Source: Amnibacterium kyonggiense (GTDB lineage: Bacteria > Actinomycetota > Actinomycetes > Actinomycetales > Microbacteriaceae). From it: a stretch of DNA of 62,645 bases. This document shows positions 5,307-32,250 of the stretch, one piece after another; within the stretch, counting starts at the first letter, position 1; each line of letters begins with the position of its first letter. Location: the NCBI RefSeq assembly GCF_004364555.1, contig NZ_SOAM01000005.1:1-62645 (forward strand), given 5' to 3'. A program made the position numbers and the translations under genes. Under the pieces are notes generated by a model. That model was not told the origin of the DNA. It searched no databases and saw only the letters and a program-made list of their open reading frames with translations.

Positions 5307-5309
5307 GGC

Positions 5310-6089: not shown

Positions 6090-6104
6090 GTCCTGCTCCT
6101 CCTC

Positions 6105-7286: not shown

Positions 7287-8608
7287 CGGTCGACCCCGCG
7301 GGCCGCGGCGACGCTCGCGTCGATGAGCCGGTCGGAGAGACCGACGGTCCCGCCGGTGGTCGTGGCGGCCGCCAGCCGGTCGCGGGTCGCCTCGTCGACG
7401 TCCGGGTCGTCGACCGCGGCGCGCCGGATCGCTGCCACGAAGTCGCCCTCGGCCAGCGCCGTCCGGGTCAGCTCGGCGGCGCGCGAGCGCCCGACGCGCT
7501 GCGCGAGCACCTGCTGCGCGCGCTCCGCGTGGATCGACCCGTCGCCCGCCTCGAGGTTCGCGCGGCTGCGCGGCGCATCGACGTCGAGCGCGGCGACGAG
7601 GCGCTCGGCGAGCACCGCGGACTCGAGCAGCAGGCGGAGGAGCTCCCGGAGGGGCTGCCACTCCGCGTGCCAGTCGCCCGCGGGGCGCTCGTCGAGTGCG
7701 AGCTGCGAGCCGAGGAGCGTCGCCGCGAGGCCGGGCGCCCGGCGCGCGTTCGCGACGAGGAGCACCGCGGCGACCGGGTTCTGCTTCTGCGGCATGGCGG
7801 ACGAGCCGCCCTCGCCCGCGCCGACCGCGAGCTCGAGCTCGCCGAGCTCGGGCCGGCTGCCCTGCACGGCCTCGAGGCCGAGGCGCCCGAGCGCGCCGAG
7901 GTGCGCGGCGACCGCCGCGCCGAGCAGCGAGACCGCCGAGCGCTCGACGTGCCAGACGCCGGGTCGCGCGGCGAGACCGAGCGCGGCCGCCACTCGCGTG
8001 CGGAGGGCCTCCGCGCCGTCCGCGCCGAGGCGGTCCGTCAGCACCGCGAGCGTGCCGACGGAGCCGCCGAGCTGCAGCGGGGTCTCAGCCGCCCCGAGCG
8101 CGCGCCGGGTGCGGGCGACGCCGTCGAGCAGCACGGCGAGGCGGAGCCCGGCGGTGGTCGGCGCGGCCTGCCGGCCGAGCGTGCGGCCGGCGACCGGCGT
8201 CGTCCGGTGTGCCTCCGCGAGCCCGGCGAGGCCCTCGAGCACGCGACCGACCGGGGCGGCGGCGCGGCGGATCGACCGGGCCGCGACGAGCATGAGCGCG
8301 GAGTCGAGCACGTCCTGGCTCGTGAGCCCGAGGTGCACGGCGTCCGCGAGCGGCGCAGGGGTGCGGCGGCGGAGCTCCGCGACGAGCGGGATCACCGGGT
8401 TGCCGCCGGACGCGGATGCCGCGGCGAGCGCGGGCAGGTCGATCTCGTCGGCCGCCCAGCGGACGCTCCCCGACGCGACGCCCGCGGCGACGAGCGCCTC
8501 GAGATGGGCGGCCTCCACGTCGACCAAGGCCCGGAGGACGGCGCGGTCGTCCGCCTCCGCCGCCGCGCCGGTCGTCGGGTCGAGCAGCCCGCTGTCGAAC
8601 CCCGTCAC
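7283..8608 (-). CDS. pcaB: 3-carboxy-cis,cis-muconate cycloisomerase
   Basis: A 441-residue member of the fumarase/aspartase superfamily with the signature loop GEGGSSAMPQKQNP carrying the catalytic serine, and the LGLTSQDVLDSA block. It lactonises 3-carboxy-cis,cis-muconate to 4-carboxymuconolactone. GTG start overlapping the pcaG stop by four bases. Length and motifs fit bacterial PcaB rather than adenylosuccinate lyase. Confidence 0.94.
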   Translation of the reverse strand: MTGFDSGLLDPTTGAAAEADDRAVLRALVDVEAAHLEALVAAGVASGSVRWAADEIDLPALAAASASGGNPVIPLVAELRRRTPAPLADAVHLGLTSQDVLDSALMLVAARSIRRAAAPVGRVLEGLAGLAEAHRTTPVAGRTLGRQAAPTTAGLRLAVLLDGVARTRRALGAAETPLQLGGSVGTLAVLTDRLGADGAEALRTRVAAALGLAARPGVWHVERSAVSLLGAAVAAHLGALGRLGLEAVQGSRPELGELELAVGAGEGGSSAMPQKQNPVAAVLLVANARRAPGLAATLLGSQLALDERPAGDWHAEWQPLRELLRLLLESAVLAERLVAALDVDAPRSRANLEAGDGSIHAERAQQVLAQRVGRSRAAELTRTALAEGDFVAAIRRAAVDDPDVDEATRDRLAAATTTGGTVGLSDRLIDASVAAARGVDR

Positions 8609-9171
8609 GCGCGGTCCGCGTACTCGAGGAACACGGTCTCGCCCTCGCCCTGCAGCCGGATGTCGAAGCGGTAGCTGCCCGGACCGTCGGCGCGGGCGAT
8701 CAGGGTCTCGCGCCGCGCGGGGTCGACGCGGTCGAGCAGCGGGTCGGCCGGCAGCGCCGCGTCCGCATCGAGGAAGTAGGCCCTCGTGAAGAGGTGGTGG
8801 AGGAGGCCGCGCGCGAAGACCGTGATCAGCGCCCAGCCCGTCGTCGACGGCGCGACGGCACCCGGGAGGACGGTCGCGAACTCGTAGTGCCCGTCGACGT
8901 CCACCGCGGAGCGGCCGAAGCCGGTGAACCGGCCGAGCTCCCGCGCGCGGCTGCCCGCCCGCTGCACGAGCGCGCCGTCCGCGTCCGCCTGCCACAGCTC
9001 GAGGAGCGCGTCCGGCACCGGCAGCCCGTCGCCGTCGAGCACCACACCGTGGAGGACGACCGCATCGGCGCGCGATGGGGCGACGAGCTGTGGGCCGCCC
9101 GCGAACGGCAGCGCGTAGCCGAAGAAGGGGCCGACCGTCTGCGAGGGCGTCTGCCCGAGGTCACTCGTCAT
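8605..9171 (-). CDS. pcaG: Protocatechuate 3,4-dioxygenase, alpha subunit
   Basis: A 188-residue alpha subunit beginning TPSQTVGPFFGYALPF, with LLELWQADADG and the C-terminal GSYRFDIRLQGEGETVFLEY block. It lacks the four metal ligands, as PcaG normally does, and shapes the active site with PcaH. The ATG at 9169-9171 was chosen because the family's N-terminus begins here; it lies inside the pcaH 3' end (11-base overlap). Confidence 0.94.
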   Translation of the reverse strand: MTSDLGQTPSQTVGPFFGYALPFAGGPQLVAPSRADAVVLHGVVLDGDGLPVPDALLELWQADADGALVQRAGSRARELGRFTGFGRSAVDVDGHYEFATVLPGAVAPSTTGWALITVFARGLLHHLFTRAYFLDADAALPADPLLDRVDPARRETLIARADGPGSYRFDIRLQGEGETVFLEYADRA

Positions 9172-9958
9172 CGTGCTCGTCCTCCATCCAGGTCGCCGTC
9201 GACCCGGTGAGCACGATGTCCCACCGGTAGCCCATCGAGAACTCCGGGACGGTCTCATCGTGGTCGTAGGCGGCGACCAGCCGCTCGCGGGCGCGCGGGT
9301 CGGTGATCGACTGGTAGATCGGGTCGAGGGCGAACAGCGGGTCGCCGGGGAAGTACATCTGCGTCACGAGCCGCTGCGTGAACGCCTGCCCGAACAGCGA
9401 GAAGTGGATGTGCGCGGGGCGCCAGGCGTTCCGGTGGTTCTTCCACGGGTACGGCCCCGGCTTGACCGTCGTGAACCGGTACGAGCCGTCGTCGCCCGTC
9501 AGCGCCCGGCCGACGCCCGTGAAGTTCGGATCGAGCGGCGCGGGGTGCTGGTCGCGCTTGTGGATGTAGCGGCCGCCCGCGTTCGCCTGCCATATCTCGA
9601 TGAGCTGGTTCCGGACCGGCCGACCGTCGCCGTCGAGGACGCGGCCGGTCACCGTCATCCGCTCGCCGAGCGGCTCGCCGGTGTGCTGGATGGTGAGGTC
9701 GCTCTCGTACGGGTCGACGTCGACGTGGCCGAAGGCGGGCGAGGTGCGCTCGATCTCCTCCGGGAACAGCGTCACCAGCTCGTGCGTCGGGTGCCGCAGC
9801 GCGCTCGAGCGGTACGGCGCGAAGTCACGCGGCGGATGGTTCGCGCGGCGCCCCGCGTACCGCTCGTGGATGCTCGCGACCTCGGCGTCGATCGTCGCCT
9901 GCGACTCGAGCGCCGGGCCGGCGACGGCCCCGTGGTCCTGACCGGTGGATGTGCTCAT
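9161..9958 (-). CDS. pcaH: Protocatechuate 3,4-dioxygenase, beta subunit
   Basis: A 265-residue iron-carrying subunit. The ferric ligands are visible: Tyr131 (GGRYIHKRDQH), Tyr170 (KPGPYPW), His183 and His185 (RPAHIHFSLFG). It cleaves protocatechuate between the hydroxyls to 3-carboxy-cis,cis-muconate. The ATG start overlaps the pobA stop by four bases. Confidence 0.96.
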   Translation of the reverse strand: MSTSTGQDHGAVAGPALESQATIDAEVASIHERYAGRRANHPPRDFAPYRSSALRHPTHELVTLFPEEIERTSPAFGHVDVDPYESDLTIQHTGEPLGERMTVTGRVLDGDGRPVRNQLIEIWQANAGGRYIHKRDQHPAPLDPNFTGVGRALTGDDGSYRFTTVKPGPYPWKNHRNAWRPAHIHFSLFGQAFTQRLVTQMYFPGDPLFALDPIYQSITDPRARERLVAAYDHDETVPEFSMGYRWDIVLTGSTATWMEDEHDDE

Positions 9959-11133
9959 CGGATCGCCAATCCCGTGTACTGCTCGGCGATGGACTGCTGC
10001 GCGGGCCGCGACCCGCTGACGTACCGCAGCCTGCCGAGCCGGCTGCGGTAGCGGAACTCGCGCTCGTCCGCCGGGACGGCGGGGCCGGGCACGTGGAGGA
10101 GGTCGGTCATGTACTCCGAGAACTGCTGCACCTTCCACTGCCGGTCGAGCGCGCGGTCGCTGTAGGAGCGGAGCGGCGCCTCGTCGCCCGCGGCCTGCGC
10201 GGCGAGCGCGTCGCCGAGCAGCGTCACGTCGGCGATCGCCGAGTTGAGCCCCTTCGCTCCGGTCGGCGGCACGATGTGGCCGGCGTCGCCCGCGAGGAAC
10301 GCGCGGCCGCGGCCGAGCGAGGACACGACGGAGGACCGCATCTGCGTGATCGACTTCTCGGTGATCGCGCCGTGCTCGAGCGTCCAGCCGGGCGCGCCGA
10401 GGCGGGTGTCGAGCGCGTCCCAGATGCGGTCGTCGCTCCACTCCTCGATCCGCTCGTCCGGCGCGACCTGGACGTACAGGCGCGACACGGAGGGGCTGCG
10501 CATCGAGTGCATCGCGAAGCCGTCCGGGTGGAGGGCGTAGATGAGCTCGTCCGTGCTCGGGGCGACGTCGGCGAGGATGCCGAGCCACGCGGCGTCGTAC
10601 CCGCGCTCGGCGACCGTCGGCGCGAGGAGGCTCCGCGTGACGCCGTGGAAGCCGTCCGCGCCGACGACGAAGTCGGCGTGCAGCTCCTGGGGCTCGCCGC
10701 CGAGGCCGAAGCGGACGACGGCCTCGCCGCCCTCGTCCGCCGGGGCGACGTCGGCCGCGTCGTAGAACACGGTGCTGCCGAGCGCGTCGTGCGCGGCCAT
10801 CAGGTCCGCCTGGACGCGCTGCTGGCCGTAGACGGTCACGGTGCGACCGACGAGCTCCTCGAAGTCGATGTGGAACCGCTCGCCCTCGTGCTGCAGGTGC
10901 ACGCCGCCGTGGACGAGGCCGTTCGCGTGGACCCCGTCCGCGAGGCCGAGCCGCTCGAGCACCTCCACGCTCGACTGCTCGAGCACGCCTGCGCGCACCC
11001 GGCCGAGCACGTGCTCGCGCGAGCGGTGCTCGACGACGGCGAACGGGACGCCGCGGTCGGCGAGCAGGGCCCCGAGGAGCAGGCCGGCCGGTCCGGCGCC
11101 GATGATCGCCACCCGTGTGCGGTGCTGCTGCAT
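9955..11133 (-). CDS. pobA: 4-hydroxybenzoate 3-monooxygenase
   Basis: A 392-residue group A flavoprotein monooxygenase: FAD fingerprint AIIGAGPAG (residues 9-17), RAGVLEQ, the DG motif VVGADGFHG and the second FAD motif FLAGDAGHIVPPTGAKG. It hydroxylates 4-hydroxybenzoate to protocatechuate with NAD(P)H and O2. The start is MQQHRTRVAII at 11133, since the family begins just before the first beta strand; the frame stays open further upstream but that part is promoter. It is first in the pob-pca operon and is preceded by a perfect palindrome (11193-11215). Confidence 0.95.
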   Translation of the reverse strand: MQQHRTRVAIIGAGPAGLLLGALLADRGVPFAVVEHRSREHVLGRVRAGVLEQSSVEVLERLGLADGVHANGLVHGGVHLQHEGERFHIDFEELVGRTVTVYGQQRVQADLMAAHDALGSTVFYDAADVAPADEGGEAVVRFGLGGEPQELHADFVVGADGFHGVTRSLLAPTVAERGYDAAWLGILADVAPSTDELIYALHPDGFAMHSMRSPSVSRLYVQVAPDERIEEWSDDRIWDALDTRLGAPGWTLEHGAITEKSITQMRSSVVSSLGRGRAFLAGDAGHIVPPTGAKGLNSAIADVTLLGDALAAQAAGDEAPLRSYSDRALDRQWKVQQFSEYMTDLLHVPGPAVPADEREFRYRSRLGRLRYVSGSRPAQQSIAEQYTGLAIR

Positions 11134-11192
11134 GGAGTCGTCCCCTTCGTCGACCTGCACACCCTCCCGGACGCGTGGGTCGATCCGCGCGC

Positions 11193-11215
11193 CTCTTCCC
11201 ACCCAGTGGGAAGAG
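11193..11215. promoter_or_regulatory. Perfect palindrome in the pobA promoter, candidate operator
   Basis: Arms CTCTTCCCAC and GTGGGAAGAG pair perfectly around a three-base centre (CCA), 60 bases upstream of the pobA start. The size and position suit an operator for the IclR regulator at 2669 or the MarR regulator at 11340. It is not followed by a T-tract, so a terminator is less likely. Confidence 0.55.
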
Positions 11216-11339: not shown

Positions 11340-11816
11340 TCAGTGCGGGAGGCCTCCGCCGAGGGCGGAGCGGCAGGCCTGCAGCGCCTCGCGCAGCCCG
11401 ACGACCTGGGCGCCGCTCATCCCGGACACCATCTGCTCCTCGATGCGCCGCACGTCAGGCAGAACGCGCTCGAGCGCGGCGAGGCCCTCCGGCGTCACGG
11501 AGAGCAGCTGGCGGCGCTGGTGCGTCGGGTCCTGCTCGCGGAAGACGAGCCCGCGCTCCTCGAGCTCCGCGGTCACGGCCGACATGGTCTGGGCGCGGAC
11601 GAAGGAGTTCTTCGCGAGCTGCGCGGAGGTGAGGCGCGGCCGCCGCTCGAGCACGGTGAGCGCGGTGTACTGCGCGACCGTGAGCCCGTCCTCCCGCAGC
11701 ACCGCGTCGAGGCGCACGCGGACCGCGAGCTCCACCTGCTTGATCAGGTAGAGCAGGGTGGCGCCGTCGCCGCGCGCCGAGCGCGGCGGGACGGCGTCCT
11801 CGAGCGACGTGGACAT
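11340..11816 (-). CDS. MarR-family transcriptional regulator
   Basis: A 158-residue MarR protein with winged helix-turn-helix (LTSAQLAKNSFVRAQTMSAV, VFREQDPTHQRRQLLSVT) between dimerisation helices. ATG start; two bases separate it from the stop of the dehydratase-like gene upstream, so it is the last gene of the 22.7-11.3 kb minus-strand run. It probably regulates that run, possibly also pobA downstream. Its ligand is unknown; MarR proteins in such settings usually sense an aromatic acid or acyl-CoA. Confidence 0.85.
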   Translation of the reverse strand: MSTSLEDAVPPRSARGDGATLLYLIKQVELAVRVRLDAVLREDGLTVAQYTALTVLERRPRLTSAQLAKNSFVRAQTMSAVTAELEERGLVFREQDPTHQRRQLLSVTPEGLAALERVLPDVRRIEEQMVSGMSGAQVVGLREALQACRSALGGGLPH

Positions 11817-11818
11817 GG

Positions 11819-13081
11819 TCACCTCCGGCCCCCATCCTCCCCCCGCCCGTCGCCGAGCGTCGCGACGAACCGGGCGATCGAGCCGCCGACGTCCGCCCGC
11901 TCGAGCGCGCGCGGGTCGGCGTTGCTCGCGCGGATCTCGAGCACCGGCACCCCGGCCTCCTCGAGCGCGAGGGTGATGAACCGGGCGCCGGCGACGTCGT
12001 CCGCGACGAGGTGGACGACGCCGTCGACCCCGTGCGTCGCCGCCTCCTTGACGTACCACTGCGGCGCGAGGGGCGGCGCGTAGAGGAGGTCGGTGACGCC
12101 GACGAAGCGGGCCGCGAGGGTCTCGATGGGGTCGTCGCCGTAGCGGATGTAGCCGTCGGCGGCGATCGCCAGGTACATCGACCACACGAAGACCGCGCCG
12201 AGCTCCTCCTCGAACCGACGGTAGAGCGCGGTGTCGCCCCAGAGTCCGCGGCCGACCCACATCAGGCGCACCCGCTCCTCCGGCACGACCGCCGCGCCGG
12301 CGTCGACGAGGGCGGCCACCTCATCGTGCAGCGCCTGCGCGGCCGCCCTCCCCCACTCGCTGCCGCGGTGCCACTGCGGGATCATCACGGCCGGGATCGT
12401 GTCGGTGACGCGCACGGGCGTCGGTCGTGCGGCGGCGACGAGATCGCGGGTGCGGCGGTTCAGCTCCTCCTGCTCGTTGATGAGGTCCATGACCGTCCGG
12501 AGGCGCTCGAGCTCGAACGTCCGTCCGGTGCGCTCCTCGAGGAACGCGATGAGCTCGCGGTTCTCCTCGGCCATCAGCGCGATCCGATCGGCCCCGAAGA
12601 TGCTCGACCAGTCGTGCGCGACCTCATCCCACCACCGCTCCGGCGCCGGGAGAGCGGCGGTCCGCTCATAGGGGAAGAACGCGACGTCGGGGTCGTCGGT
12701 CCAGGCCTCGAAGACCTTGCCGGTGGCATCCCCGCTCAGCTCGGCGATGACGATGCCGGGCTTCGGCAGGCCGCCCCAGAGCGCCTCCTGATCGGCGACG
12801 CCGCGCGAGCCGAGGGCGAGCACGTCGTACTGCCGGCTGTCGTCGGGGTGGCCGAGCCCCGCGACCACGGCGAGGCTCTCCCCCGCGAGCTGCTTCGCCG
12901 TGACGACCGACGCCCACCACTGGTTCACGACGTACGGGACGTCCATCGCGCGGAGGATCTCCTGCGGCGCGTCCGCGTTGACGAGCGCGATCACCTCGCC
13001 CGCGGCGGCGCGTGCCCGGAGCGTCCCGAACCACTCCCGCTGGTGCGCCAGCGCCGCGGTCGTCGCGGCGAGCCGGCTCAC
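11819..13081 (-). CDS. 2-hydroxyacyl-CoA dehydratase / benzoyl-CoA reductase-family subunit without cysteines (subunit I)
   Basis: A 420-residue protein with the fold pattern of the HgdA/HgdB/BcrB/BcrC family. Seen are the N-terminal 'P-E-ilrA' block (DAPQEILRAMDVPY), a middle helix with LRTVMDLINEQEELNRR, the RVRLMWVGRGLW turn, DPIETLAARF and the C-terminal GVDGVVHLVADD..EEAGVPVLEI block. Family members bind a 4Fe-4S cluster through cysteines, one of them in a [D/L]CSY-type motif. Here that place reads DDSRQY (residues 80-85), and the whole protein has no cysteine. Canonical radical dehydration is therefore not possible. GTG start overlaps the stop of subunit II. Function unknown; no HgdC/BadG-type activator is encoded in the window. 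Confidence 0.75.
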   Translation of the reverse strand: MSRLAATTAALAHQREWFGTLRARAAAGEVIALVNADAPQEILRAMDVPYVVNQWWASVVTAKQLAGESLAVVAGLGHPDDSRQYDVLALGSRGVADQEALWGGLPKPGIVIAELSGDATGKVFEAWTDDPDVAFFPYERTAALPAPERWWDEVAHDWSSIFGADRIALMAEENRELIAFLEERTGRTFELERLRTVMDLINEQEELNRRTRDLVAAARPTPVRVTDTIPAVMIPQWHRGSEWGRAAAQALHDEVAALVDAGAAVVPEERVRLMWVGRGLWGDTALYRRFEEELGAVFVWSMYLAIAADGYIRYGDDPIETLAARFVGVTDLLYAPPLAPQWYVKEAATHGVDGVVHLVADDVAGARFITLALEEAGVPVLEIRASNADPRALERADVGGSIARFVATLGDGRGEDGGRR

Positions 13082-14157
13082 GCGGACCGCCGGAGGGTCT
13101 CGAGGCCGTCGAGCACCGCGGCCGGGTCGTCGCCGCGGACGAGCACCGCGGGCACCCCGGCGGCGGCGCGCTGCCGCGACCAGTCCCAGAGCGGACCGTC
13201 GTCGTGGTCGCGGACGACGGCGAGCAGCGCCCGCGCGCCTGTGCGGCCCACTCCCGCTGCGGTCGCGGCGGCGCGGGCGGCCATCGACGAGGTCGCGGAG
13301 GCGGGGTCGCCGTGCAGCCGGGCGCTCGCCGCGGCGAGCGCCGCCTCCTCCCGGGTGCGTGGCACCACGTCGCCCGGGTCGTCGCTCGCCACCGGGTCGC
13401 CCCAGTCGTGGTCCTCGCCGACGATCACGGCACCGGCGGACTCGACCAGCCGGTACAGCCGGTCGCTGATCGGTGCGCTGCCGGTGAGCCACACGGGCAG
13501 CGCCGCGGCCTCCCGGGCGTCGAGCGCCCCGTCGGCGTCGACGCCGGCGTCCTCCCCCGCTGCGGTGACGCCGTAGGCGTGCAGCGCGGCGGTGCCGGTC
13601 GGGCCGTCCGGCGCGGACCGCGCGTCGCGGATGCGGCGCAGCGCTGCGACGGTCGCCGACCGGCCGTCCCACGCCGCGGCGAGCGAGGCGGCGGTGATGG
13701 AGGACCCGGTCCAGCCCTCGACCGTCTCGACCATCCCGAGCAGCCGGCCCGTGTTGAAGCGGAGGGTGCTCTCCCGCGGCAGGTGCACCTGGTCGACCAG
13801 CAGCACCGGCACCCGGATGCGGCCGCGGCGGTGCAGTTCGTGGAGGGCGGCGGCGAGCCGCACCGACGCCTCCGAGTCGTGCGCGACGAGTACGCCGCGG
13901 AGCGCGTCGTACCGTCCCGCGAGCATCGCTGCGGCGACGAGGAGCGCCGCCCGGTCGACCGCGCCGCCCAGGTACTCGGCCGCCTCCGCCGTGTCCGCCT
14001 CCTCGGCGGGGATGCGGAACGGGACGCCGCCGGCAGCGGCGACGAGCACCGCCGGCACGTCACGGCCGACGATCCCGACGACCGCGTCGCCGGCCTCCGC
14101 CCGCCGGAGCGCCGCCGGGACGCGAGCCGCGTATCGCTCGGCCAGGACGGCGCTCAC
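13078..14157 (-). CDS. 2-hydroxyacyl-CoA dehydratase-family subunit without cysteines (subunit II)
   Basis: A 359-residue paralogous partner. The N-terminal half is clearest: VGRDVPAVLVAAAGGVPFRIP matches the family's 'P.EL..AaG..PvR' block. AGRYDALRGVLVAHDSEASVRLAAAL matches the region that normally ends in CDS, here HDS (His93-Asp94-Ser95). The C-terminal family block is more diverged. No cysteine occurs anywhere, so the usual cluster ligands are gone in this subunit too. GTG start overlaps the CoA-transferase stop (GTGA) and its stop overlaps subunit I, implying equimolar co-translation. It may be a CoA-ester-binding or non-redox lyase descendant of the family. Confidence 0.7.
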   Translation of the reverse strand: MSAVLAERYAARVPAALRRAEAGDAVVGIVGRDVPAVLVAAAGGVPFRIPAEEADTAEAAEYLGGAVDRAALLVAAAMLAGRYDALRGVLVAHDSEASVRLAAALHELHRRGRIRVPVLLVDQVHLPRESTLRFNTGRLLGMVETVEGWTGSSITAASLAAAWDGRSATVAALRRIRDARSAPDGPTGTAALHAYGVTAAGEDAGVDADGALDAREAAALPVWLTGSAPISDRLYRLVESAGAVIVGEDHDWGDPVASDDPGDVVPRTREEAALAAASARLHGDPASATSSMAARAAATAAGVGRTGARALLAVVRDHDDGPLWDWSRQRAAAGVPAVLVRGDDPAAVLDGLETLRRSA

Positions 14158-15401
14158 AGGGCGCCGGCCGCGCGCAGCGTCTCGATGCGCGCCTCGTCGT
14201 ACCCGAGCAGCTCGCCGAGCACCGCCTCCGTGTGCTCGCCGAGCCACGGCGCGGGTCGGTCGAGCGACGTGCTGCTGCCGGACAGGACGATCGGGACGCC
14301 TGAGCCGTACAGCTCCTCCGCGACGCCGAACACGGGGTGCTGCAACGGCTCGACCTCACCGCGCCGCAGGACGAGCGGGTCGCGCACGGCTTCGCCGGTG
14401 TCGCGGACGGGCGCCGCGGGCACGCCCTCCGCTTCGAGTCGTCCGACGGCCTCCGCGATCGGCAGGTCGCTCGCCCAGTCACGGATCATCGCGTGCAGCT
14501 CGTCCGCGTGCCGGACGCGCGCGTCGCGCTTCGCGAACCGCGGGTCGGTCGCGAGGTCGGGCCGGCCGATCGCGGCGAGGAGGTGCGACGCGAACACGTC
14601 CGTCGGCCCGCACAGCGCGAACCAGCCGTCGCTGCCCTCGAAGACGCCGAACGGGGCGAGGCGCGGAACGTAGGACCCCGTCCGCAGCGGCATCCCGATC
14701 TTCTCGAACGCGTCGAACGGCTCGCAGGCGACGAGGGACGTGAGCGCGCCGAGCATCGAGACGTCGACGTGCTGCCCCTCCCCGGTCCGGTCCACCTCGA
14801 GCAGCGCCGACAGCACCCCGATGACGCTGTAGAGCGGCGCGACCAGATCGGCGATCGGCAGCCCGAAGCGGATCGGGGGCTGGCCGGGCTCGCCGGCGGT
14901 GAGCATGGTGCCGCTGAGCGCCTGGATGATCGTGTCCATCGCCTTGCCGCTGCCCGAGGCGCCCTGCGCGCCGAAGCCGCTGATGGAGGCGTAGACGAGC
15001 CTCGGATTCAGCTCGTGCACCGCAGCGAAGTCGATGCCGAGGCGGCGGGTGACGCCGGCGCTGAAGTTCTCGACGAGCACGTCGGCCTCGGCGACGAGCT
15101 CGCGGAAGACCGCGGCGCCCGCCGGGGCCTTCAGGTTGAGCGTGATGCTCTCCTTGTTCCGCCCGCGCAGCATCATCGAGACCGACATGTCCTCATCGCT
15201 CGTGCGGTGCGGCTGCAGCCCGGTCGCCGAGTAGTAGGGCGCGTTGTTGCGGGAGGTGTCACCGCCGAGTGCGGGGTTCTCCACCTTGATGACGCGCGCG
15301 CCGAGGCCGGCGAGGAGCAGCGTCGCGTACGGCCCGGACAGCGCGGTGGTGAGGTCGAGGACGGTCCGTCCGGCGAGCGGGTGGTCGAGACGATCGGTCA
15401 T
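14154..15401 (-). CDS. CaiB/BaiF class III (family III) CoA-transferase
   Basis: A 415-residue formyl-CoA transferase-type enzyme: GPYATLLLAGLGARVIKVENP near the N-terminus, catalytic Asp in GSGKAMDTIIQALSG, and PLYSVIGVLSALLEVDRTGEGQHVDVSML. It exchanges CoA between carboxylic acids. Position directly before the two dehydratase-like genes, with four-base overlaps on both sides, parallels the HadA/FldA-type transferase next to 2-hydroxyacyl-CoA dehydratases. It probably supplies their acyl-CoA substrate. Confidence 0.88.
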   Translation of the reverse strand: MTDRLDHPLAGRTVLDLTTALSGPYATLLLAGLGARVIKVENPALGGDTSRNNAPYYSATGLQPHRTSDEDMSVSMMLRGRNKESITLNLKAPAGAAVFRELVAEADVLVENFSAGVTRRLGIDFAAVHELNPRLVYASISGFGAQGASGSGKAMDTIIQALSGTMLTAGEPGQPPIRFGLPIADLVAPLYSVIGVLSALLEVDRTGEGQHVDVSMLGALTSLVACEPFDAFEKIGMPLRTGSYVPRLAPFGVFEGSDGWFALCGPTDVFASHLLAAIGRPDLATDPRFAKRDARVRHADELHAMIRDWASDLPIAEAVGRLEAEGVPAAPVRDTGEAVRDPLVLRRGEVEPLQHPVFGVAEELYGSGVPIVLSGSSTSLDRPAPWLGEHTEAVLGELLGYDEARIETLRAAGAL

Positions 15402-16552
15402 GCGCTGACTCCTTGCTGCTGCTGCGGTTCGACCCGGACGACGTCGCCGTCCTGGACGAACCCGGTCGCGAACCCCTCGGCCCGCGTGATCCGCCGGATG
15501 TACTCGACGACGGCGTTCCCGCCGTCGTCCCCGCCCCACGGGACCGGCCGTGCTCCCTCGTCGAGGAAGCACGGCACGAGACCGACGAGGGCGTCCCCGT
15601 CCGGCTCGACGTCGAGGACAGCGACCATCGTGTTCCGGCTCTCCGGGTGGAACGGGTACCAGGAAGGCAGCGCGGGGTCCGGTTCGAACCCGAACAGGCG
15701 CCGCCGCCGCTCCGCCCACCGCCGCTGCTCGGCCACGTCCGCGGTCGTCGGCGTCAGCGCGTCGGTCACCGTGACGAGGTTCCCGAGCCCGTGGAAGATC
15801 GGCTGCCCGCGGTACATCTCGACGCCGCGGAGGATGTGAGCGTGATGGCCGACGACGATCGCGGCGCCGGCGTCGATCGCGGCATGGGCGACCTCGGTCT
15901 CGTAGGCGGCGAGCTCGGCGGGGGCGTGCACGAGGCCCTTGTGCAGGGCGACGACCAGCAGGTCGACCCGGTCGGCGGCGCGCGCGACCACCGCGCGCAT
16001 CCGCTCGAGGCTCGCCGGATCCGCCCAGGTGTGGACGCTGGGCGGCCCGCCCGGGTTCGCACCGATCGGCTCGTAGTGGGAGAGGACCTTCACGTAGGCG
16101 GCGCCGGGCCTGCGGCTCGTGGCCCAGCTGTCGGTCGGCCCGACGCAGTTGAAGGAGAGCACGCCGACGGTCCGCTCGCCGACGCGGACGACGACGGGGG
16201 CCTCCGCCGCGGTCAGGTCCTCCCCGGCGCCCGCGGTGCGGAGGCCGAACCGGGTCGCCGCGGCGATCGTCTCCTGGATCCCCTCGGCGCCCGCGTCCGC
16301 GATGTGGTTGCCCGCGAGCGTCAGCACGTCGAACCCGGCACGGCGGACGGCGCCGAGGTGCTCGGGATCGGCCGGCGGGGCGGGCACGTCGACGGTCGCG
16401 ACGGTGGTCGTCCTCGCGTGCGGCACCTCCAGCTGCCCGATCGTCAGCGCCGCGGACGTCAGCAGGTCCCGCACCGGATCGAAGAAGCCGTCGGGGTCCG
16501 GGCGGTCGACGATCAGGTCGCCGGTGAGGGCGATGCGGAAGCCGGCCGTCAT
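15398..16552 (-). CDS. CapA-fold metallophosphatase-like protein
   Basis: A 384-residue CapA/PGA_cap-type protein with the calcineurin-like fold signatures: ALTGDLIVDRPD at the start, TLAGNHIADAG in the middle and VGHHAHILRGVEMYRG near the C-terminus. Unlike capsule PgsA proteins it has no signal peptide or membrane anchor and sits in a catabolic operon between a CoA-transferase and a hydrolase, overlapping both by four bases. A cytoplasmic hydrolytic role (phosphoester or amide) is an inference; the substrate is unknown. Confidence 0.75.
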   Translation of the reverse strand: MTAGFRIALTGDLIVDRPDPDGFFDPVRDLLTSAALTIGQLEVPHARTTTVATVDVPAPPADPEHLGAVRRAGFDVLTLAGNHIADAGAEGIQETIAAATRFGLRTAGAGEDLTAAEAPVVVRVGERTVGVLSFNCVGPTDSWATSRRPGAAYVKVLSHYEPIGANPGGPPSVHTWADPASLERMRAVVARAADRVDLLVVALHKGLVHAPAELAAYETEVAHAAIDAGAAIVVGHHAHILRGVEMYRGQPIFHGLGNLVTVTDALTPTTADVAEQRRWAERRRRLFGFEPDPALPSWYPFHPESRNTMVAVLDVEPDGDALVGLVPCFLDEGARPVPWGGDDGGNAVVEYIRRITRAEGFATGFVQDGDVVRVEPQQQQGVSA

Positions 16553-17400
16553 GCGCGCATCGGCGGCTCGGCGACGCCGTTCAGCTCGTCGACGAACACG
16601 CGCACCTCGCGCACGAGGCGCTCCGCGGACTCCTCGCCCACCATGTGGCCCTCGTCCTCGAAGAGCACCGCCTTCGCGCCGCGGACGTTGACGGCCGCAC
16701 GGAGGGCGGACTGCGGCGAGATCACGCCGTCCCGCATCCCGGCGAGGATCAGCACCGGCAGGCGGATGCCGCGATAGACCTCCGCGAGCTCCTCGTCCGT
16801 CGTCGCCTCCGGGAACGGCTTGCCCTGATTGAGCTCCGCCTCGTCGTCGGGGCGGAGGCCCGCCTCCTCGGCCTGCTTCGCGAATCGCACGCGTCGGGAC
16901 TCGATCCGGGCCGGGTCGTCGGTCCAGCCGGCCATGTGCTCGAGGTTGGCGACGACCGCCGCGGGGTCCTTGCGCTGCGCGATGAAGCGCCGGCGGCCCT
17001 CCGACGACCCGGTGCCGCCCGCGCGGTCGTGCGGGGTGCCGACCACCGAGATCAGGGCCTTCAGCCGCGCCGGGTTCCGCCGCGCGATGTGCCACCCGAT
17101 GCCGCCGCCGTGGGAGATGCCCGTGTAGAGGAAGCGGTCGACGCCGATGCGGTCCGCGAACGCGCAGACGTCGTCCGCCCACTGGTCGAGCCACCCGATC
17201 TCGGGCGGCGCCGCCGGGTGGGTCGAGCGCCCGAAGCCGCGGGCCTGGATCGTGAAGACGCGGTACCCGGTCGGCGGGTCGCCGAGGACCTCAGGGTAGC
17301 CGCCTCGGGCGAACCCCATCGCGGAGGAGAGCACCACCTCGTCGCCGGAGCCGAACTCCTCGTACCAGAGCGTTCCGGTGCCGATGTCCATCGTGGGCAT
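16549..17400 (-). CDS. Alpha/beta hydrolase
   Basis: A 283-residue alpha/beta hydrolase. Nucleophile Ser in TGISHGGGIGW (about residue 95), acid in GMRDGVISP, His in EDEGHMVGEE. The DEELAEVYRGIRLPV cap-to-core transition is typical of esterase/lactonase-type members. It lies between the CapA-like gene (overlap) and dppF (three bases apart), so it is expressed with the importer. Possibly it opens an ester, lactone or CoA ester of the imported substrate. Confidence 0.85.
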   Translation of the reverse strand: MPTMDIGTGTLWYEEFGSGDEVVLSSAMGFARGGYPEVLGDPPTGYRVFTIQARGFGRSTHPAAPPEIGWLDQWADDVCAFADRIGVDRFLYTGISHGGGIGWHIARRNPARLKALISVVGTPHDRAGGTGSSEGRRRFIAQRKDPAAVVANLEHMAGWTDDPARIESRRVRFAKQAEEAGLRPDDEAELNQGKPFPEATTDEELAEVYRGIRLPVLILAGMRDGVISPQSALRAAVNVRGAKAVLFEDEGHMVGEESAERLVREVRVFVDELNGVAEPPMRA

Positions 17401-17403: not shown

Positions 17404-18252
17404 TCATCCCTCCTGTTCGGCGAGCGCCCTGCGGGCGTCGCGACGCAGCTGCTGCTCGTCCGGATCGGGGACGGGCGCGGACGCGAGCAGCGACTGCGTG
17501 TACGGGTCCTCGGGGTACTCGTAGACCCGTTCCGCCGGTCCGCGCTCGACGACCCGGCCGCCCCGGAGCACGACGATCTCGTGCGAGATGTGCCGCACGA
17601 CGGTGAGGTCGTGCGAGATGAAGAGCAGGCTGAGCCCGAGGTCGCGCTGGACCTCGGCGAGGAGGTTCAGCACCTCCGCCTGCACCGAGAGGTCGAGCGC
17701 GCTCACCGGCTCGTCGCAGACCACGAGCCGCGGCGAGAGCATCAGCGACCGCGCGATGGCGATGCGCTGCCGCTGGCCGCCGGAGAACTGCGCCGGATAG
17801 CGGTGCGCGGCGTCCGGACCGAGGCCGACGCGGCCGAGCAGCGAGCCCATCCGGTCCGCGATCTGCTGCCGCGTCATCCGCTCGCCCGCCGGGCGGTTCA
17901 CGCACGGCTCGGCGAGCGTGTACCCGATCGTCTTCGTGGGGTCGAGCGAGCTGTACGGGTCCTGGAACACGACCTGCCGCCGGGCGCCGAGCGCCCGCCG
18001 CTCGCGGCCGGAGAGCCGCGCGACGTCCCGCCCCTCGAACACGACCGAGCCCGCCGCGATCGGCACGAGGCCGAGGACGGCCTTCCCGATCGTCGACTTG
18101 CCGGAGCCGGACTCGCCGACGAGCCCGAGCGTGCGGCCCGGCGGGATCGCGAGGTCGACGCCCTCCACCACGCGGGCGCGCCTTCGGCCCGTGCCGTAGT
18201 CGACGGCGAGGCCGGTCACCGAGAGCAGCGGCTCCTGCGGCTGCTCGGTCAT
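17404..18252 (-). CDS. Oligopeptide-type ABC transporter ATPase (DppF/OppF-like)
   Basis: A 282-residue ABC ATPase: Walker A VGESGSGKSTIGK, Q-loop VFQDPYSSLDP, signature FSGGQRQRIAIARSL, Walker B LVVCDEPVSALD, H-loop ISHDLTV. The C-terminal YTQSLLASAP extension is typical of the Opp/Dpp family. ATG start overlaps the stop of the permease-ATPase fusion. Works at the inner face of the membrane with the products of the next three genes. Confidence 0.92.
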   Translation of the reverse strand: MTEQPQEPLLSVTGLAVDYGTGRRRARVVEGVDLAIPPGRTLGLVGESGSGKSTIGKAVLGLVPIAAGSVVFEGRDVARLSGRERRALGARRQVVFQDPYSSLDPTKTIGYTLAEPCVNRPAGERMTRQQIADRMGSLLGRVGLGPDAAHRYPAQFSGGQRQRIAIARSLMLSPRLVVCDEPVSALDLSVQAEVLNLLAEVQRDLGLSLLFISHDLTVVRHISHEIVVLRGGRVVERGPAERVYEYPEDPYTQSLLASAPVPDPDEQQLRRDARRALAEQEG

Positions 18253-20168
18253 GCGACCGCCTCCCGCAGAGCGTCGACGCGGATGCAGCGGCTCATGCGG
18301 CCGTCGCCGACGTCGACCATCGGGATCGGCGCCTGGCGGCACGCGTCGGTCGCGAAGGCGCAGCGCGCGGCGAAGCGGCAGCCGACCGGCCACTGCGCGG
18401 GCGACGGCACGACCCCGCCGATGGTCGGCAGCGGCTCCCCCGGCACGGCGTCGTGCGGGTTGGAGCGCAGCAGCGCGAGCGTGTACGGGTGGCGCGGCTC
18501 GGCGAACGTCGCCCGGACCGGCGCCGACTCGACGACCTGCCCGGCGTACATCACGACGGCGCGGCTGCAGAGGTCGGCGATGACGCCCCAGTCGTGGCTG
18601 ACGAGCACGATCGCCATCCCCGTCCGCTGCTGGATGCCGCGCAGGAGGTCGAGGATCTCGGCCTGCACCGTGACGTCGAGCGCGGTCGTCGGCTCGTCCG
18701 CGATGAGCAGCCGCGGCTCCCCCGCGAGCGCGATCGCGATCGCGACGCGCTGCGCCATGCCGCCGGAGATCTCGTGCGGGTACTTCCGCGCGACGGACGG
18801 GTCGAGCCGGACGGCGCGCAGCAGCTCGTCGACGCGCTCCCGGGCGCTGCGCCGCCCGAGCCGGCGGTGCGCGCTCGCGGCCTCGGCGATCTGCGAGCCC
18901 ACGCGGAAGGACGGGTCGAGCGACACCATCGGCTCCTGCGAGATCATCGCGATGCCGGCACCGCGGACCTCGCGCAGCTTCGCGTTCGAGAGTCCGACCA
19001 GCTCCTGCCCGTCGAAGCGGATCGAGCCGTCGACGATCCGGCCGTTCGCGCCGAGCAGGCCGAGCAGCGAGAGCGCGGTCACCGTCTTGCCGCTGCCGGA
19101 CTCGCCGACGAGGCCGACGACCTCGCCCGGCTCGACCTCGAGGTCGACGCCGTCCACCACGACCGTCTCGGCGCCGCGCTCGCCGAACCCGACCCGCAGC
19201 CCGCGCACGGCGAGCAGCGCGCCCGCGGCGGAGCGGCCGGACGGCTCGGGGGCGGCGGGCCGCTCGACGGCACGCGCCGCGGCGGGCGAGCGGCGGGCCG
19301 CGGAGCCGGCGAACGTGAAGCGCTCCTGGTTCGCGTCGCGGACCGCGTCCCCGAGGAGGCAGAGCGCGAGCGTGGTGACGGCGATGATCCCGCCGGTCGG
19401 CACGAGCAGCCAGGGGTCGATCTGGATGAGCGACGCGGCCTCCGCCACCATCCCGCCCCAGGTCGGTGCGGGCGGCGGCGGGCCGAAGGCGAGGAACGCG
19501 AGGCCGGTCTGGATGCCGAGCGTCGCCGCGGCGAAGAGCGTGATCTGCACGAGCAGCACGCCGCGCAGCTGCGGGAGCACGTGCCGGAGGACGATGCGCG
19601 GCTCGTCCACGCCGGACACCCGCGCGGCGCCGATGTAGAGCTCCTGCCGGACGCCGAGCACGACGCTCCGGAAGACGCGGATGAAGGCGCCGCTGGCGAG
19701 GACGCCGACGCTGATCATCGCGACGAGCATGCTGTTGTTGAAGATCGCGAGGACGGCGAGCGTGATGATCGTGCCCGGGATCGACAGCAGCACGTCCACG
19801 ACGCGGAGCACGATCCGGTCGACGATCCCGCCGAGGTAGCCGGCGACGACGCCGAGCGGCACGGCGATGACGAGCATCGCCAGGACCGCCTCCACGACGC
19901 CGGCGAGGGACTCCTGGCCCCCGTACAGCAAGCGGCTCAGCACGTCACGCCCGAGGCTGTCCGTGCCGAGCAGGTGCGCGGCGCTCGGCCCCTGCCGCAC
20001 GTCGCGGAGGCTCTGCGCGAGCGGATCGGCGGGCGCGATGAGCGGCGCCGCGATCACCGCGAGCACGATGACCAGCAGGACGACCCCGGACACGACGCCG
20101 AGCGGCTTGCGCAGCACGCGCGGCAGGATCCCCGTCGAGAGCGCGCGGGAGCGGCCGATCGCGGTCAT
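18249..20168 (-). CDS. ABC transporter permease-ATPase fusion (DppC-DppD)
   Basis: A 639-residue fusion. Residues 1-290 are a DppC-type permease with several membrane helices and the EAA-like loop GAARVSGVDEPRIVLRHVLP. A proline/alanine linker follows, then a DppD-type ATPase: Walker A VGESGSGKTVTA, signature ISGGMAQRVAIAIAL, Walker B LLIADEPTTALD and the Opp-type C-terminal cysteine motif (CRFAARCAFATDAC). Such fusions occur in several actinobacterial Dpp operons. ATG start overlaps the dppB stop region by four bases. Confidence 0.92.
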   Translation of the reverse strand: MTAIGRSRALSTGILPRVLRKPLGVVSGVVLLVIVLAVIAAPLIAPADPLAQSLRDVRQGPSAAHLLGTDSLGRDVLSRLLYGGQESLAGVVEAVLAMLVIAVPLGVVAGYLGGIVDRIVLRVVDVLLSIPGTIITLAVLAIFNNSMLVAMISVGVLASGAFIRVFRSVVLGVRQELYIGAARVSGVDEPRIVLRHVLPQLRGVLLVQITLFAAATLGIQTGLAFLAFGPPPPAPTWGGMVAEAASLIQIDPWLLVPTGGIIAVTTLALCLLGDAVRDANQERFTFAGSAARRSPAAARAVERPAAPEPSGRSAAGALLAVRGLRVGFGERGAETVVVDGVDLEVEPGEVVGLVGESGSGKTVTALSLLGLLGANGRIVDGSIRFDGQELVGLSNAKLREVRGAGIAMISQEPMVSLDPSFRVGSQIAEAASAHRRLGRRSARERVDELLRAVRLDPSVARKYPHEISGGMAQRVAIAIALAGEPRLLIADEPTTALDVTVQAEILDLLRGIQQRTGMAIVLVSHDWGVIADLCSRAVVMYAGQVVESAPVRATFAEPRHPYTLALLRSNPHDAVPGEPLPTIGGVVPSPAQWPVGCRFAARCAFATDACRQAPIPMVDVGDGRMSRCIRVDALREAVA

Positions 20169-21106
20169 CGGACGCGCACCTTCGGGTTGAGCACGCCGTA
20201 GAGCACGTCGACGACGAGGTTCACGACGATCACGACGAGCGTGAAGACGACGCCGACGCCGAGCACGACGGGCAGGTCGTGGGAGGTCGTCGCCTGCGTC
20301 ACGAGCGACCCCAGCCCGGGCAGGACGAACACGTTCTCGACGAACACGGCGCCGGTGAGCGCCCCGACGACGGTGATGCCGAGCACCGTCAACGAGGGCA
20401 GGGCAGCGTTCCGGAGCACGTGCTTGAACACGATCGATCGCTCGCGGATCCCGGAGGCCCGGAGCACGCGGATGTAGTCGCGGCCGAGCACGTCGAGCGC
20501 GGAGTCGCGCATCTGCTTCGCCACGATCGTGATGCCGCCGAGGCTCAGCGCCGCGACCGGGAGGACGAGCGACAGGAACCACGGGACGGGGCCGTCGACG
20601 AACGGCTGGTAGCCCGTGGCCGGGAAGACCCGGATCGCCACCGCGAACAGGGCGACGAGCACGATCGCCACCCAGTAGCTCGGCAGCGCGAGGCCGACGA
20701 GCGAGACGGTGTCGAGGAGCCGGCCCAGCGGGCCGCCCCGGACCGCGCTGCCGAGGCCGACGACGGTGCCGATCACGCTGATGGCGAGCGTCGAGAGCAG
20801 CAGCAGGGACAGGGTGACGGGGAGCCGCACGGCGATGAGCTGGGCGACCGGGTCGCCCGAGAGGACGGACTGGCCGAGGTCGCCGTGCAGGACCCCGGCG
20901 AGCCACTCGCCGTACTGGACGGGCAGCGGCTGGTCGAGGCCGAGCTGCTCCCGGAGGCGGGCGACGAGGTCCGGCGTCGCGTTGGCGCCGAGGATCGTGC
21001 GCGCCGGATCGCCGGGGACGAACGACATGAGGACGAAGATCGCGAGCGAGGCGATCACGACGAGGACGGCGGACAGCACGAGCCTGGTGACGATGAGGCG
21101 GATCAC
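20165..21106 (-). CDS. ABC transporter permease (DppB-like)
   Basis: A 313-residue DppB/OppB permease with an N-terminal helix (IVTRLVLSAVLVVIASLAIF), FVPGDPARTILG and REQLGLDQPLPVQY family blocks and the EAA loop LGRDYIRVLRASGIRERSIVFKHVLRN (only its ends are diagnostic). GTG start chosen at the family N-terminus. It is followed by the permease-ATPase fusion and preceded by a strong intra-operon hairpin. Confidence 0.92.
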   Translation of the reverse strand: MIRLIVTRLVLSAVLVVIASLAIFVLMSFVPGDPARTILGANATPDLVARLREQLGLDQPLPVQYGEWLAGVLHGDLGQSVLSGDPVAQLIAVRLPVTLSLLLLSTLAISVIGTVVGLGSAVRGGPLGRLLDTVSLVGLALPSYWVAIVLVALFAVAIRVFPATGYQPFVDGPVPWFLSLVLPVAALSLGGITIVAKQMRDSALDVLGRDYIRVLRASGIRERSIVFKHVLRNAALPSLTVLGITVVGALTGAVFVENVFVLPGLGSLVTQATTSHDLPVVLGVGVVFTLVVIVVNLVVDVLYGVLNPKVRVR

Positions 21107-21120
21107 GCCTGGACTCCCTT

Positions 21121-21152
21121 CGGAGCGCCCGGGCCGCGGCCCGGGCACTCCG
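21121..21152. promoter_or_regulatory. Strong stem-loop between dppA and dppB
   Basis: A 15-bp GC-rich stem with one mismatch (arms CGGAG..GCCCGGGCC and GGCCCGGGC..CTCCG, two-base centre) lies between the binding-protein gene and the permease gene. Such hairpins commonly stabilise the abundant binding-protein mRNA or attenuate read-through, keeping the lipoprotein in excess over the membrane complex. Confidence 0.6.
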
Positions 21153-21167
21153 ATCGACGGACGACGA

Positions 21168-22748
21168 CTACTTGGCGGCCTTCCACGCGTATGCGGGGTC
21201 GGGCGCGATCGGCAGCGGGTTCGGGTTCAGCGCCGACGCGGTGACGCCGGTCAGGTCCTTGCCCACGGCGAAAATGTTGTCCGTGGAGACGACGGGCACG
21301 AACCACGCCGCGTCGTTCGACGCCTTCGTGATCTGCTCGAAGACCGCGGTCCGGGCCGAGGCGTCAGCCGCCGACTGCGCGTCGGCGTAGAGCTTCGTCA
21401 ACGTCGGGTCGGCGTTGCCGAACGGGTTCGTGACGCCCGGCTGGATGAAGTTCGCGAGGACCTGCGCGCTCGTCGCCCCGATCACCGGCCAGATCACCGC
21501 GGCGTACTTCTTGGAGAGCGACGCCTGGATGAAGTCCGGGACCGTGTTCTTGACGTCGAGCTTGACCGTGATGCCGACCTTGCCGAGGTCGCTCGCGATC
21601 GCCTGCGAGATCGTCGTCTGGTTGTCGAGCACGTTCTCGGTCAGCACCGTGAGGGTGAACCCGTTCGGGTACCCGGCACCGGCGAGGAGCGACTTCGCCT
21701 TCTGGACGTCCTGCTCGTAGCCGTAGCCGTCGACGTAGCCGTCGGTGCCCTTCGCGCCGAGCTGGCCGTTGCCCTGGTTGTAGTCGGCGCCGAGGGCGGA
21801 CGCGAGCGCACCGCGGTCGATCGCGAGCGCCATCGCCTGGCGCACGTCCTTGTTCTTCAGCGCCGGCGCGATGGTGCCCTGGTAGTCGACGTTCGTGAGG
21901 CCCCACGTGAAGAACGGCGCCGTGACGAGCTTCAGCCCGCTCGACTTCGCGTTCGCCGCGGTCGTCGGGTTCAGCCCGGCGAAGGAGGCCTGCCCGGTCG
22001 TGACGGCGGAGAGCGTCGCGCTCGGGTCGCCGATGACCTTCACGACGACCTTGTCGTACTGCTGCGCGTCCGGGTTGAAGTACTTCTCGTTCTTCACGTA
22101 GGTGTACGAGGAGTTCGTCACGGACTGGGACGCGGCGTAGGCGTACTGGCCCGTCCCGTCGCTCTTCGTGAGCAGGCTCTTCGGGTCGGCGATCCCCTTC
22201 GGGCCGATGATCTGCCCGACGCCCCAGTACTGCGTGAGGAAGAACGGGCCGTCCGGGTACGGCGACTTGTACGTGATCGTCACCGTATCGGCGGACGGTG
22301 CGGTGACCGAGTCGACCGGCCCGGCGTAGCGCACGTCGCCGCCGCCGGCCTTGAGGAAGTACTCGATCGACGCCTTCACGGCGGCCGCGTCGAGCTTCTC
22401 CCCGTCGGTGAAGGTGACGCCGTCGCGGATCGTCAGGGTCAGCTCGGTGTTCGTGCTGTTGAACGACCACTTCGTGGCGAGGTCCGGGATCAGCTTCCCG
22501 TCGCCCGTCTGGTACACGAGCGAGTCGTAGGGCAGGGCGGTGAAGATCGCGCTCCCGCCGGAGCCGCCGAGCGCGGGGTTCAGGCTGATCGGGATTCCGG
22601 CGAACTGCGTGGTGAGGGTGCCGCCCTTCGTGGAGCCGGACGCGCCCCCCTTCGAGGCGGCGTCGCTGCACGCGCTCGCCGTGAGCGCGATCGCGACGGC
22701 GGTGACGCCGGCGAGCAGGGCTCGCACGGGCAGACGGGATGCAGGCAT
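21168..22748 (-). CDS. ABC transporter substrate-binding lipoprotein (family 5, DppA-like)
   Basis: A 526-residue SBP_bac_5 protein. The N-terminus has a lipoprotein signal with lipobox LTASAC (Cys27) and a Ser/Gly-rich linker. Family blocks follow: PDLATKWSFNSTNTELTLTI near residue 90, RQAMALAIDRGAL, and the C-terminal ASNDAAWFVPVV region. It is anchored outside the membrane and delivers a peptide-like or other bulky solute to DppBCDF. First gene of the minus-strand arm, facing the divergent arm at 22859 across a 110-base promoter region. The substrate need not be a peptide, given the catabolic neighbours. Confidence 0.92.
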   Translation of the reverse strand: MPASRLPVRALLAGVTAVAIALTASACSDAASKGGASGSTKGGTLTTQFAGIPISLNPALGGSGGSAIFTALPYDSLVYQTGDGKLIPDLATKWSFNSTNTELTLTIRDGVTFTDGEKLDAAAVKASIEYFLKAGGGDVRYAGPVDSVTAPSADTVTITYKSPYPDGPFFLTQYWGVGQIIGPKGIADPKSLLTKSDGTGQYAYAASQSVTNSSYTYVKNEKYFNPDAQQYDKVVVKVIGDPSATLSAVTTGQASFAGLNPTTAANAKSSGLKLVTAPFFTWGLTNVDYQGTIAPALKNKDVRQAMALAIDRGALASALGADYNQGNGQLGAKGTDGYVDGYGYEQDVQKAKSLLAGAGYPNGFTLTVLTENVLDNQTTISQAIASDLGKVGITVKLDVKNTVPDFIQASLSKKYAAVIWPVIGATSAQVLANFIQPGVTNPFGNADPTLTKLYADAQSAADASARTAVFEQITKASNDAAWFVPVVSTDNIFAVGKDLTGVTASALNPNPLPIAPDPAYAWKAAK

Positions 22749-28967: not shown

Positions 28968-28983
28968 CGGTCATCCCGGAGGT

Positions 28984-29017: not shown

Positions 29018-29028
29018 GCCGCCCGAGG

Positions 29029-31326
<2,298 letters not shown>

Positions 31327-31330
<4 letters not shown>

Positions 31331-32208: not shown

Positions 32209-32250
32209 GGCCGCTCCTCCCGTGCTGCACTGCACGTCCCGGGAGGAATT

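Follow-up and report, generated by a model that had tools for sequence, protein, structure and literature searches.

Two neighbouring genes of Amnibacterium kyonggiense raise the question of whether a protein pair of the benzoyl-CoA reductase I/2-hydroxyacyl-CoA dehydratase family (HGD family) can work without the iron-sulphur clusters and the ATP-dependent activator typical of that family. The genes, encoding subunit I and subunit II, lie on NZ_SOAM01000005.1 (contig C5), a complete contig of 62,645 bases in a genome of 3.71 Mb in 6 contigs; the whole contig was analysed and is called the window here. We conclude with moderate confidence that the two proteins probably form a heterodimer of this family that gave up clusters and activator and became a redox-neutral, oxygen-tolerant acyl-CoA enzyme. 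The absence of any cluster, the substrate class and the reaction are what we infer from sequence.

Membership of the family, as a first-pass annotation made from the letters alone had proposed, is clear. Both proteins pass the 28.4-bit cut-off of HGD-D (PF06050), subunit I with 116.1 bits and subunit II with 51.1 bits, and no other HGD-D match was found in the genome. The two are homologous subunits, as judged by sequence, and are encoded together. Profile searches against solved structures matched subunit I to MbdO, BzdO and HadB (best MbdO, 5.7e-21) and subunit II to BzdN and HadC (best BzdN, 7.5e-28), and hhalign gave 98.6% and 99.5% against actinobacterial pairs with intact cysteines (Cys-intact pairs). 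Subunit I reached none of the NCBIfam equivalogs BzdO (34.7 against 448.6 bits), HadB (32.8 against 750) and double-cubane cluster protein (DCCP; 32.4 against 350). Neither subunit contains a cysteine, as the annotation had stated, a weak argument when taken alone: Cys makes up 0.28% of the residues of 25 other window genes (27 in 9,554), the expected chance of finding none at this frequency is ~0.30 and ~0.36 for the two subunits, and among the other window proteins checked, 22 reach 250 aa or more and 7 of these are equally Cys-free. Since Cys is rare in other window proteins, we rejected its total absence as evidence by itself, and the argument is carried by the ligand columns.

To follow these columns, we used relatives from a scan of GTDB species genomes with subunit I, which returned 416 stretches; 123 relatives were confirmed, and the best 80 loci were used. 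The subunit I alignment holds 81 rows (the window, L006 and 79 of the 80 loci, L029 being dropped) and that of subunit II holds 76 (the window, L006 and 74 loci). Left out of the latter were L023 and L087, which gave no match, and L030, L060, L088 and L096, where subunit II is split, short or partial, perhaps through frameshifts or assembly errors. Cys-intact pairs from three actinobacterial genomes (L117, L118 and L119) served as comparison; column counts of subunit II use two of them, the subunit II frame of G013 being left out. According to PMC11971306, the cluster ligands are Cys95, Cys128 and Cys380 of BzdO and Cys36, Cys73, Cys100, Cys263, Cys293 and Cys327 of BzdN. Three of six cluster-Cys positions are invariant Asp in the clade: D118 in subunit I, and D68 and D319 in subunit II.

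In subunit I, BzdO Cys95 falls on R83, a column with E in 42 rows, R in 20, L in 10, Q in 4, others, and C in one of 81; the annotation had rightly read DDSRQY at this place, with R83 on the first ligand position. BzdO Cys128 corresponds to D118 in the Cys-intact alignment, with D in 81/81 rows, a register that also fits how far the Cys lies from the PxP motif and from the next aromatic residue in HadB and the Cys-intact rows; the PDB profile alignment shifts it one residue earlier, to G117 (G in 79/81, C in one). Counted from the DG motif, BzdO Cys380 falls on D362 (D in 79/81) with a downstream anchor, or on V363 (A, T, V or P) with an upstream one. The three alpha-subunit cysteines of the catalytic [4Fe-4S] cluster are thus replaced by R83, G117/D118 and D362/V363. 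In subunit II, D68 (D in 76/76) stands where HadC and the Cys-intact rows have Cys, and BzdN Cys327 aligns with D319 (D in 76/76) and BzdN Cys100 with column 95 (C 44, S 29, T 2, G 1 of 76), so that the window has D68, S95 and D319 in place of beta-subunit cysteines of a second cluster. The annotation had seen HDS for the CDS motif here; its register was off by two, the ligand column being S95 and not the histidine. Cysteines elsewhere in subunit I concentrate in columns 266 (56 rows), 221 (39) and 115 (5), none of which is a ligand position. The idea of a Cys-less clade therefore stands for the ligand losses, which are clade-wide, and falls for the total absence of Cys, since among the 81 loci extracted (L023 and L087 without a subunit II match) both subunits are wholly Cys-free only in the window and L006.

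The new aspartates would also suit a mono- or dinuclear enzyme binding a hard metal (Mg, Mn, Zn or Fe2+) on them, a lyase or hydrolase that would be a metal-dependent form of the reading given above and possibly a thioester hydrolase. It gains from the conservation of D118 (81/81), of D68 and D319 (both 76/76), of D94 and H250 (both 75/76) and of D251 (70/76), but the aspartates could equally make salt bridges, R48 and R316 of subunit II being conserved in 76/76 as well, and D68 is lost in the sphingomonad relatives described below. We consider such a metal enzyme unlikely.

According to PMC11971306, Glu65 and His131 are the acid-base residues of BzdO, and Tyr97 and Tyr298 hold the thioester oxygen. 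Position 54 of subunit I is Q in 81/81 clade rows versus E in 3/3 Cys-intact rows, and the Glu of MbdO and HadB aligns with it; the BzdO alignment begins only at residue 71. Q54 would thus be the counterpart of BzdO Glu65, and the catalytic Glu beside the cluster is replaced. By contrast, Tyr97 and Tyr298 map to Y85 and Y303 by count on the profile alignment, and both are Y in 81/81 clade rows and 3/3 Cys-intact rows. BzdO Gln274 falls on R278, kept in 80/81 clade rows and Ile in the Cys-intact rows. Because the tyrosines are invariant while the ligand cysteines and the Glu are lost, these alignments suggest that the CoA-thioester pocket was kept while the redox centre was replaced.

The own genome has four BcrAD-type matches, none matched to a true activator: L098 and L100 have no Cys, L098 to L100 are unmatched to an activator, and L101 is below the Pfam cut-off. 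No ATP-dependent activator with GGQDxK and CxxGTGxF was found there. Nor was one found in any of ten Cys-less genomes (the own and nine others), versus 2/2 Cys-intact genomes, G013 and G510, in which an activator with GGQDSK and MNDRCA[AS]GTG adjoins the HGD pair. A wider search covered 78 genomes of the 80 loci (all but L040 and L045; at least three apparently shared with the ten-genome set). A strong activator match was absent from 70 of the 78, three of these 70 having short weak matches (E 6e-4 to 5.6e-6), and the activator profile hidden Markov model (HMM) found no match in the flanks of the 80 loci. The annotation had noted the lack of an activator gene in the window, and the wider searches extend this in the same direction.

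The remaining eight genomes are the most informative. All of them hold HGD places beyond the Cys-less pair, and in none does a strong activator match share a contig with that pair. Seven of the eight are actinobacterial, and there every strong match sits next to another HGD pair, one with all three Cys motifs in its alpha subunit. The Chloroflexi genome G851 has six activator matches: three beside HGD pairs on its contigs C5 and C61, one on C2, where a lone HGD place lies ~5 kb away, and two on C100, for which no HGD place is listed. Nothing else argues as strongly as this contrast within single genomes that the Cys-less pair works without an activator, even though the cell has one in those eight. 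With the ligand cysteines lost clade-wide except at column 95 of subunit II, no activator found in the own genome or in 70 of the 78 others, the tyrosines kept and the CoA-transferase co-encoded, the cluster-free, oxygen-tolerant use of the fold put forward by the first-pass annotation is supported.

Cys-intact HGD pairs also occur in Actinobacteria, G013 of the window's own family included, most with an adjacent activator and some, by reading, beside PaaX-like and CoA-ligase-like genes. They may represent aryl-CoA reductase or dehydratase systems in organisms that are generally regarded as aerobes.

The shared losses bear directly on whether the window pair is simply a decaying copy of an ordinary dehydratase. 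The loss of canonical motifs would fit such decay, but an 80-locus clade has the identical losses, and the case of intact close homologues beside a decayed window copy is excluded, the relatives at 52-87% identity sharing the losses. By the Nei-Gojobori method, the ratio of non-synonymous to synonymous substitution rates (dN/dS) between the window and L006, L018 and L019 is ~0.14-0.29 for subunit I and 0.40-0.57 for subunit II, which shows that subunit I is under purifying selection. We reject decay on these two grounds as almost certainly wrong. A non-catalytic pseudoenzyme is harder to dismiss: the pair would bind the acyl-CoA made by the neighbouring CaiB-type transferase and serve that enzyme as a regulatory partner, stabiliser or carrier. 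The joint loss of cluster cysteines, catalytic Glu and activator, the tight coupling to CaiB and the faster evolution of subunit II all speak for this; subunit I, however, is more conserved (104 columns are invariant across 27 rows, and many of these hold polar residues or Trp), and the ligands became invariant Asp rather than drifting, which suggests a function at the site. A pseudoenzyme is, in our judgement, decidedly unlikely.

A 48-row tree of subunit I places 29 Cys-less rows on one side of a branch (support 100/99) and 15 Cys-intact rows on one side of another (100/100), with a long branch from the Cys-less clade. Four alphaproteobacterial rows fall between, on the Cys-less side of the tree; three Cys-bearing Chloroflexi rows have long branches and an unsure placement, with false joins flagged by the tool. 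Alphaproteobacterial relatives came from a plasmid search, which returned seven records at 35-42% identity (Novosphingobium 4, Croceicoccus 2, Rhizobium 1). On the three records with an annotated match, all from sphingomonads, subunit I is labelled "2-hydroxyacyl-CoA dehydratase family protein", and the gene cluster comprises CapA, a TRAP importer, HGD-II (annotated hypothetical and identified by the clade HMM), a double CaiB, HGD-I and hydrolases of CocE/NonD and other types. The CoA-transferase of two CaiB-like halves lies directly before HGD-I (L152:12866-14953, L153:12851-14953 and L155:12884-14968). Compared with the actinobacterial hydrolases, the plasmid CocE is 37% and the DUF6351-like protein 31% identical (both L152), and a third hydrolase 34-38% (three records), PETase-like only below the Pfam cut-off. 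The actinobacterial CocE, DUF6351-like and PETase-like clusters occur in 14, 26 and 9 of 81 sequences (the 80 loci and the window, with a filtered gene call that misses genes). A similar gene set thus recurs across phyla, and the esterases are not at every locus. No activator was found on the four plasmid records searched (plasmids only; chromosomes were not searched).

Several observations weigh against a uniformly cluster-free clade. D118, Y85, Y303 and D319 are present in 4/4 alphaproteobacterial rows and Q54 in 3/4, but in all three sphingomonads subunit I has Cys at positions 83, 117 and 119 and A for R278, and subunit II has A or P for D68; in Rhizobium, T replaces Q54, G replaces D362 and E replaces D68. 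Within the main alignments, column 95 of subunit II is still Cys in 44/76 rows, and Cys occurs at 83 and at 117 of subunit I in one row of 81 each. At G117/D118 and D362/V363 the mapping could shift by one residue, and BzdN's own alignment sets Cys73 one residue ahead of D68. Finally, the third Cys-intact genome, G571, has no BcrAD-type match in its 850 contigs, the contig ending just past the pair. The wider clade is therefore not uniform, with graded ligand replacement in its alphaproteobacterial rows, and may in places hold a non-standard cluster. A rival reading is an unusual Fe-S or other iron enzyme, whose cluster would sit on carboxylates together with remaining Cys or Ser, as Cys95 of subunit II and the sphingomonad cysteines might allow. 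Against it, the window and L006 are Cys-free in both subunits, the leading Cys columns of subunit I lie off the ligand positions, and the searches for an activator came back empty for most genomes; we regard this reading as very unlikely.

We return to the redox-neutral enzyme, for which we propose a likely scheme. An imported carboxylic acid would be converted to its CoA thioester by the co-translated CaiB-type transferase, and subunit I would hold the thioester by the retained oxyanion-binding Y85 and Y303, with R278 close by. Acid-base chemistry, water elimination or a similar enolate reaction, could then be carried out by D118, D361-D362 and Q54, the polar residues replacing the cluster and the catalytic Glu, the aspartates perhaps binding a hard divalent metal. 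The partner would be subunit II, which has D68, D94 and D319 at its former cluster site and may provide a second metal site or a structural one. That an imported acid is catabolised is suggested by the importer, by the esterases present at some loci and by the regulators of PaaX or MarR type. More tentatively, and as a possibility we would not yet call probable, the whole radical, ATP- and Fe-S-dependent pair may have become an oxygen-tolerant acyl-CoA lyase with ionic chemistry based on carboxylates or a metal. It would then be the core of an aerobic module not described so far, made up of the pair, a class III CoA-transferase, CapA, an importer and esterases and spread over Actinobacteria, Chloroflexi and Alphaproteobacteria.

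Table 1. Coordinates of the HGD pair and its neighbours in the window.
Feature	Position	Strand	Remarks
MarR-type regulator, 3' of subunit I	11340..11816	minus	start and name by reading
Subunit I (HGD-I; alpha/BzdO/HadB-like)	11819..13081	minus	420 aa, no Cys; marked residues Q54, R83, Y85, G117-D118, R278, Y303, D361-D362
Subunit II (HGD-II; beta/BzdN/HadC-like)	13078..14157	minus	359 aa, no Cys; marked residues D68, D94-S95, D251, D319
Class III (CaiB/BaiF) CoA-transferase	14154..15401	minus	415 aa; Pfam CoA_transf_3, 354.8 bits
CapA-type protein (PGA_cap)	15398..16552	minus	384 aa; Pfam scan on 15401-16564
Alpha/beta hydrolase	16549..17400	minus	283 aa; homologue at 7/80 loci
ABC importer genes (ATPase, permeases, solute-binding protein)	17404..22748	minus	Opp-type by reading

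On the minus strand the genes run CapA, CaiB, subunit II, subunit I, with a 4-bp stop/start overlap at each junction and GTG as start codon of both subunits, as the proposed co-translation with the class III CoA-transferase would have it. The CapA-type protein shows no obvious signal peptide by eye. Its sole NCBIfam match is the lasso-peptide epimerase MslH, at 101 bits against a cut-off of 700; kept beside the pair in 71/80 loci, it may be a pathway epimerase or metallo-hydrolase. The importer clusters ATPase, c28, c18 and c29 are common to the window, L018 and L019, and partly to L029, and the MarR-type window gene resembles L018:11233-11709, which is MarR in Pfam.

CaiB, subunit II and subunit I are adjacent on the same strand, with II directly upstream of I, in 71/80 loci. 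Nine loci depart from this order: L023 lies at a contig end, matches are split or short in L030 and L060, an MFS-type gene separates CaiB from subunit II in L050, L086 and L091, no subunit II was found in L087, L096 has a partial subunit II with CaiB elsewhere, and in L097 subunit II and CaiB are on the opposite strand. With clade HMMs on either strand of the fetched flanks, CaiB was found at 79/80 loci, HGD-II at 78/80, CapA at 71/80, a family-3 solute-binding protein at 63/80 and PaaX at 52/80, the flank families being named from Pfam on representatives. The expectation that the pair always travels with CaiB and CapA thus holds as a strong tendency and fails as a rule.

Among the best 80 loci, all but L087 and L097 are actinobacterial. 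Genome samples, whose counts include the own genome, gave few matches. A sample of 60 relatives contained three (the own, one 75% relative and one Cys-intact at 27%), and none of its six same-genus genomes has the pair. With at most four candidates scored per genome, the order sample gave 4/396 and the class sample 10/394 (the own, five full-length relatives, two Cys-intact and two short matches); a Pfam-family search of the class gave 9/296 (the own, the same five, two Cys-intact and a partial match in G469). The pair is rare and patchy in these samples, and because its closest relative, L006, comes from a different family of the order, the module looks accessory and horizontally shared. The low-G+C end of the window (51900-62645; G+C down to 0.64-0.66 versus 0.72-0.76 in the rest of the contig) carries, by reading, recombinase-like frames at 51943-53496 on the plus strand and 61369-61953 on the minus strand, and the contig may be a plasmid or the bearer of a mobile end.

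Aromatic catabolism genes surround the operon (4653-11202 and 28386-43604), among them a 4-hydroxybenzoate 3-monooxygenase-type protein scanned with NCBIfam and, by reading, intradiol-dioxygenase-, CoA-transferase-, LigM-, MetF- and maleylacetate-reductase-like genes. We rejected a general tie between the pair and genes for protocatechuate, 4-hydroxybenzoate or hydroxyquinol, because homologues of such genes at E <= 1e-30 occur near 0-1 of the 80 loci; the protocatechuate and 4-hydroxybenzoate genes next to the pair are a peculiarity of the window. The vanillate-type neighbours are likewise local, since LigM homologues lie near only 9 and MetF near only 8 of the 80.

Compared with known systems, the pair resembles BzdNO and MbdNO, the class I benzoyl-CoA reductases of bzd/mbd type, in its two HGD-D subunits and conserved thioester tyrosines, and differs in having other residues in place of the catalytic Glu and of the cluster cysteines in both subunits, and in that no activator of that family was found. 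With the 2-hydroxyacyl-CoA dehydratases HadBC, FldBC and HgdAB it shares twin HGD subunits and a neighbouring CaiB-type transferase, an arrangement also present in fldA operons, but it lacks the ligand cysteines and the activator. DCCP, of the same family according to PMC11971306 and weakly matched in NCBIfam, are homodimers, whereas the window pair consists of two distinct subunits and has no cluster cysteines. The nearest cluster-bearing comparators found are the Cys-intact actinobacterial pairs (L117, L118, L119 and seven genomes), L117 and L119 with a PaaX-like gene nearby by reading; they differ from the Cys-less clade in having all three alpha-Cys motifs and a neighbouring activator where found (motifs read in two). 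A literature search by titles and abstract starts, with subscription journals mostly outside it, returned nothing on cysteine-less HGD pairs.

In PMC11971306, the evolution of the family is read as a stepwise loss of sub-clusters. A clade with the ligands lost in both subunits would end that path and offer a natural test of what the fold does without redox chemistry. The label "2-hydroxyacyl-CoA dehydratase family protein" would then wrongly imply radical, activator-dependent chemistry, and the operon points to an uncharacterised catabolic route.

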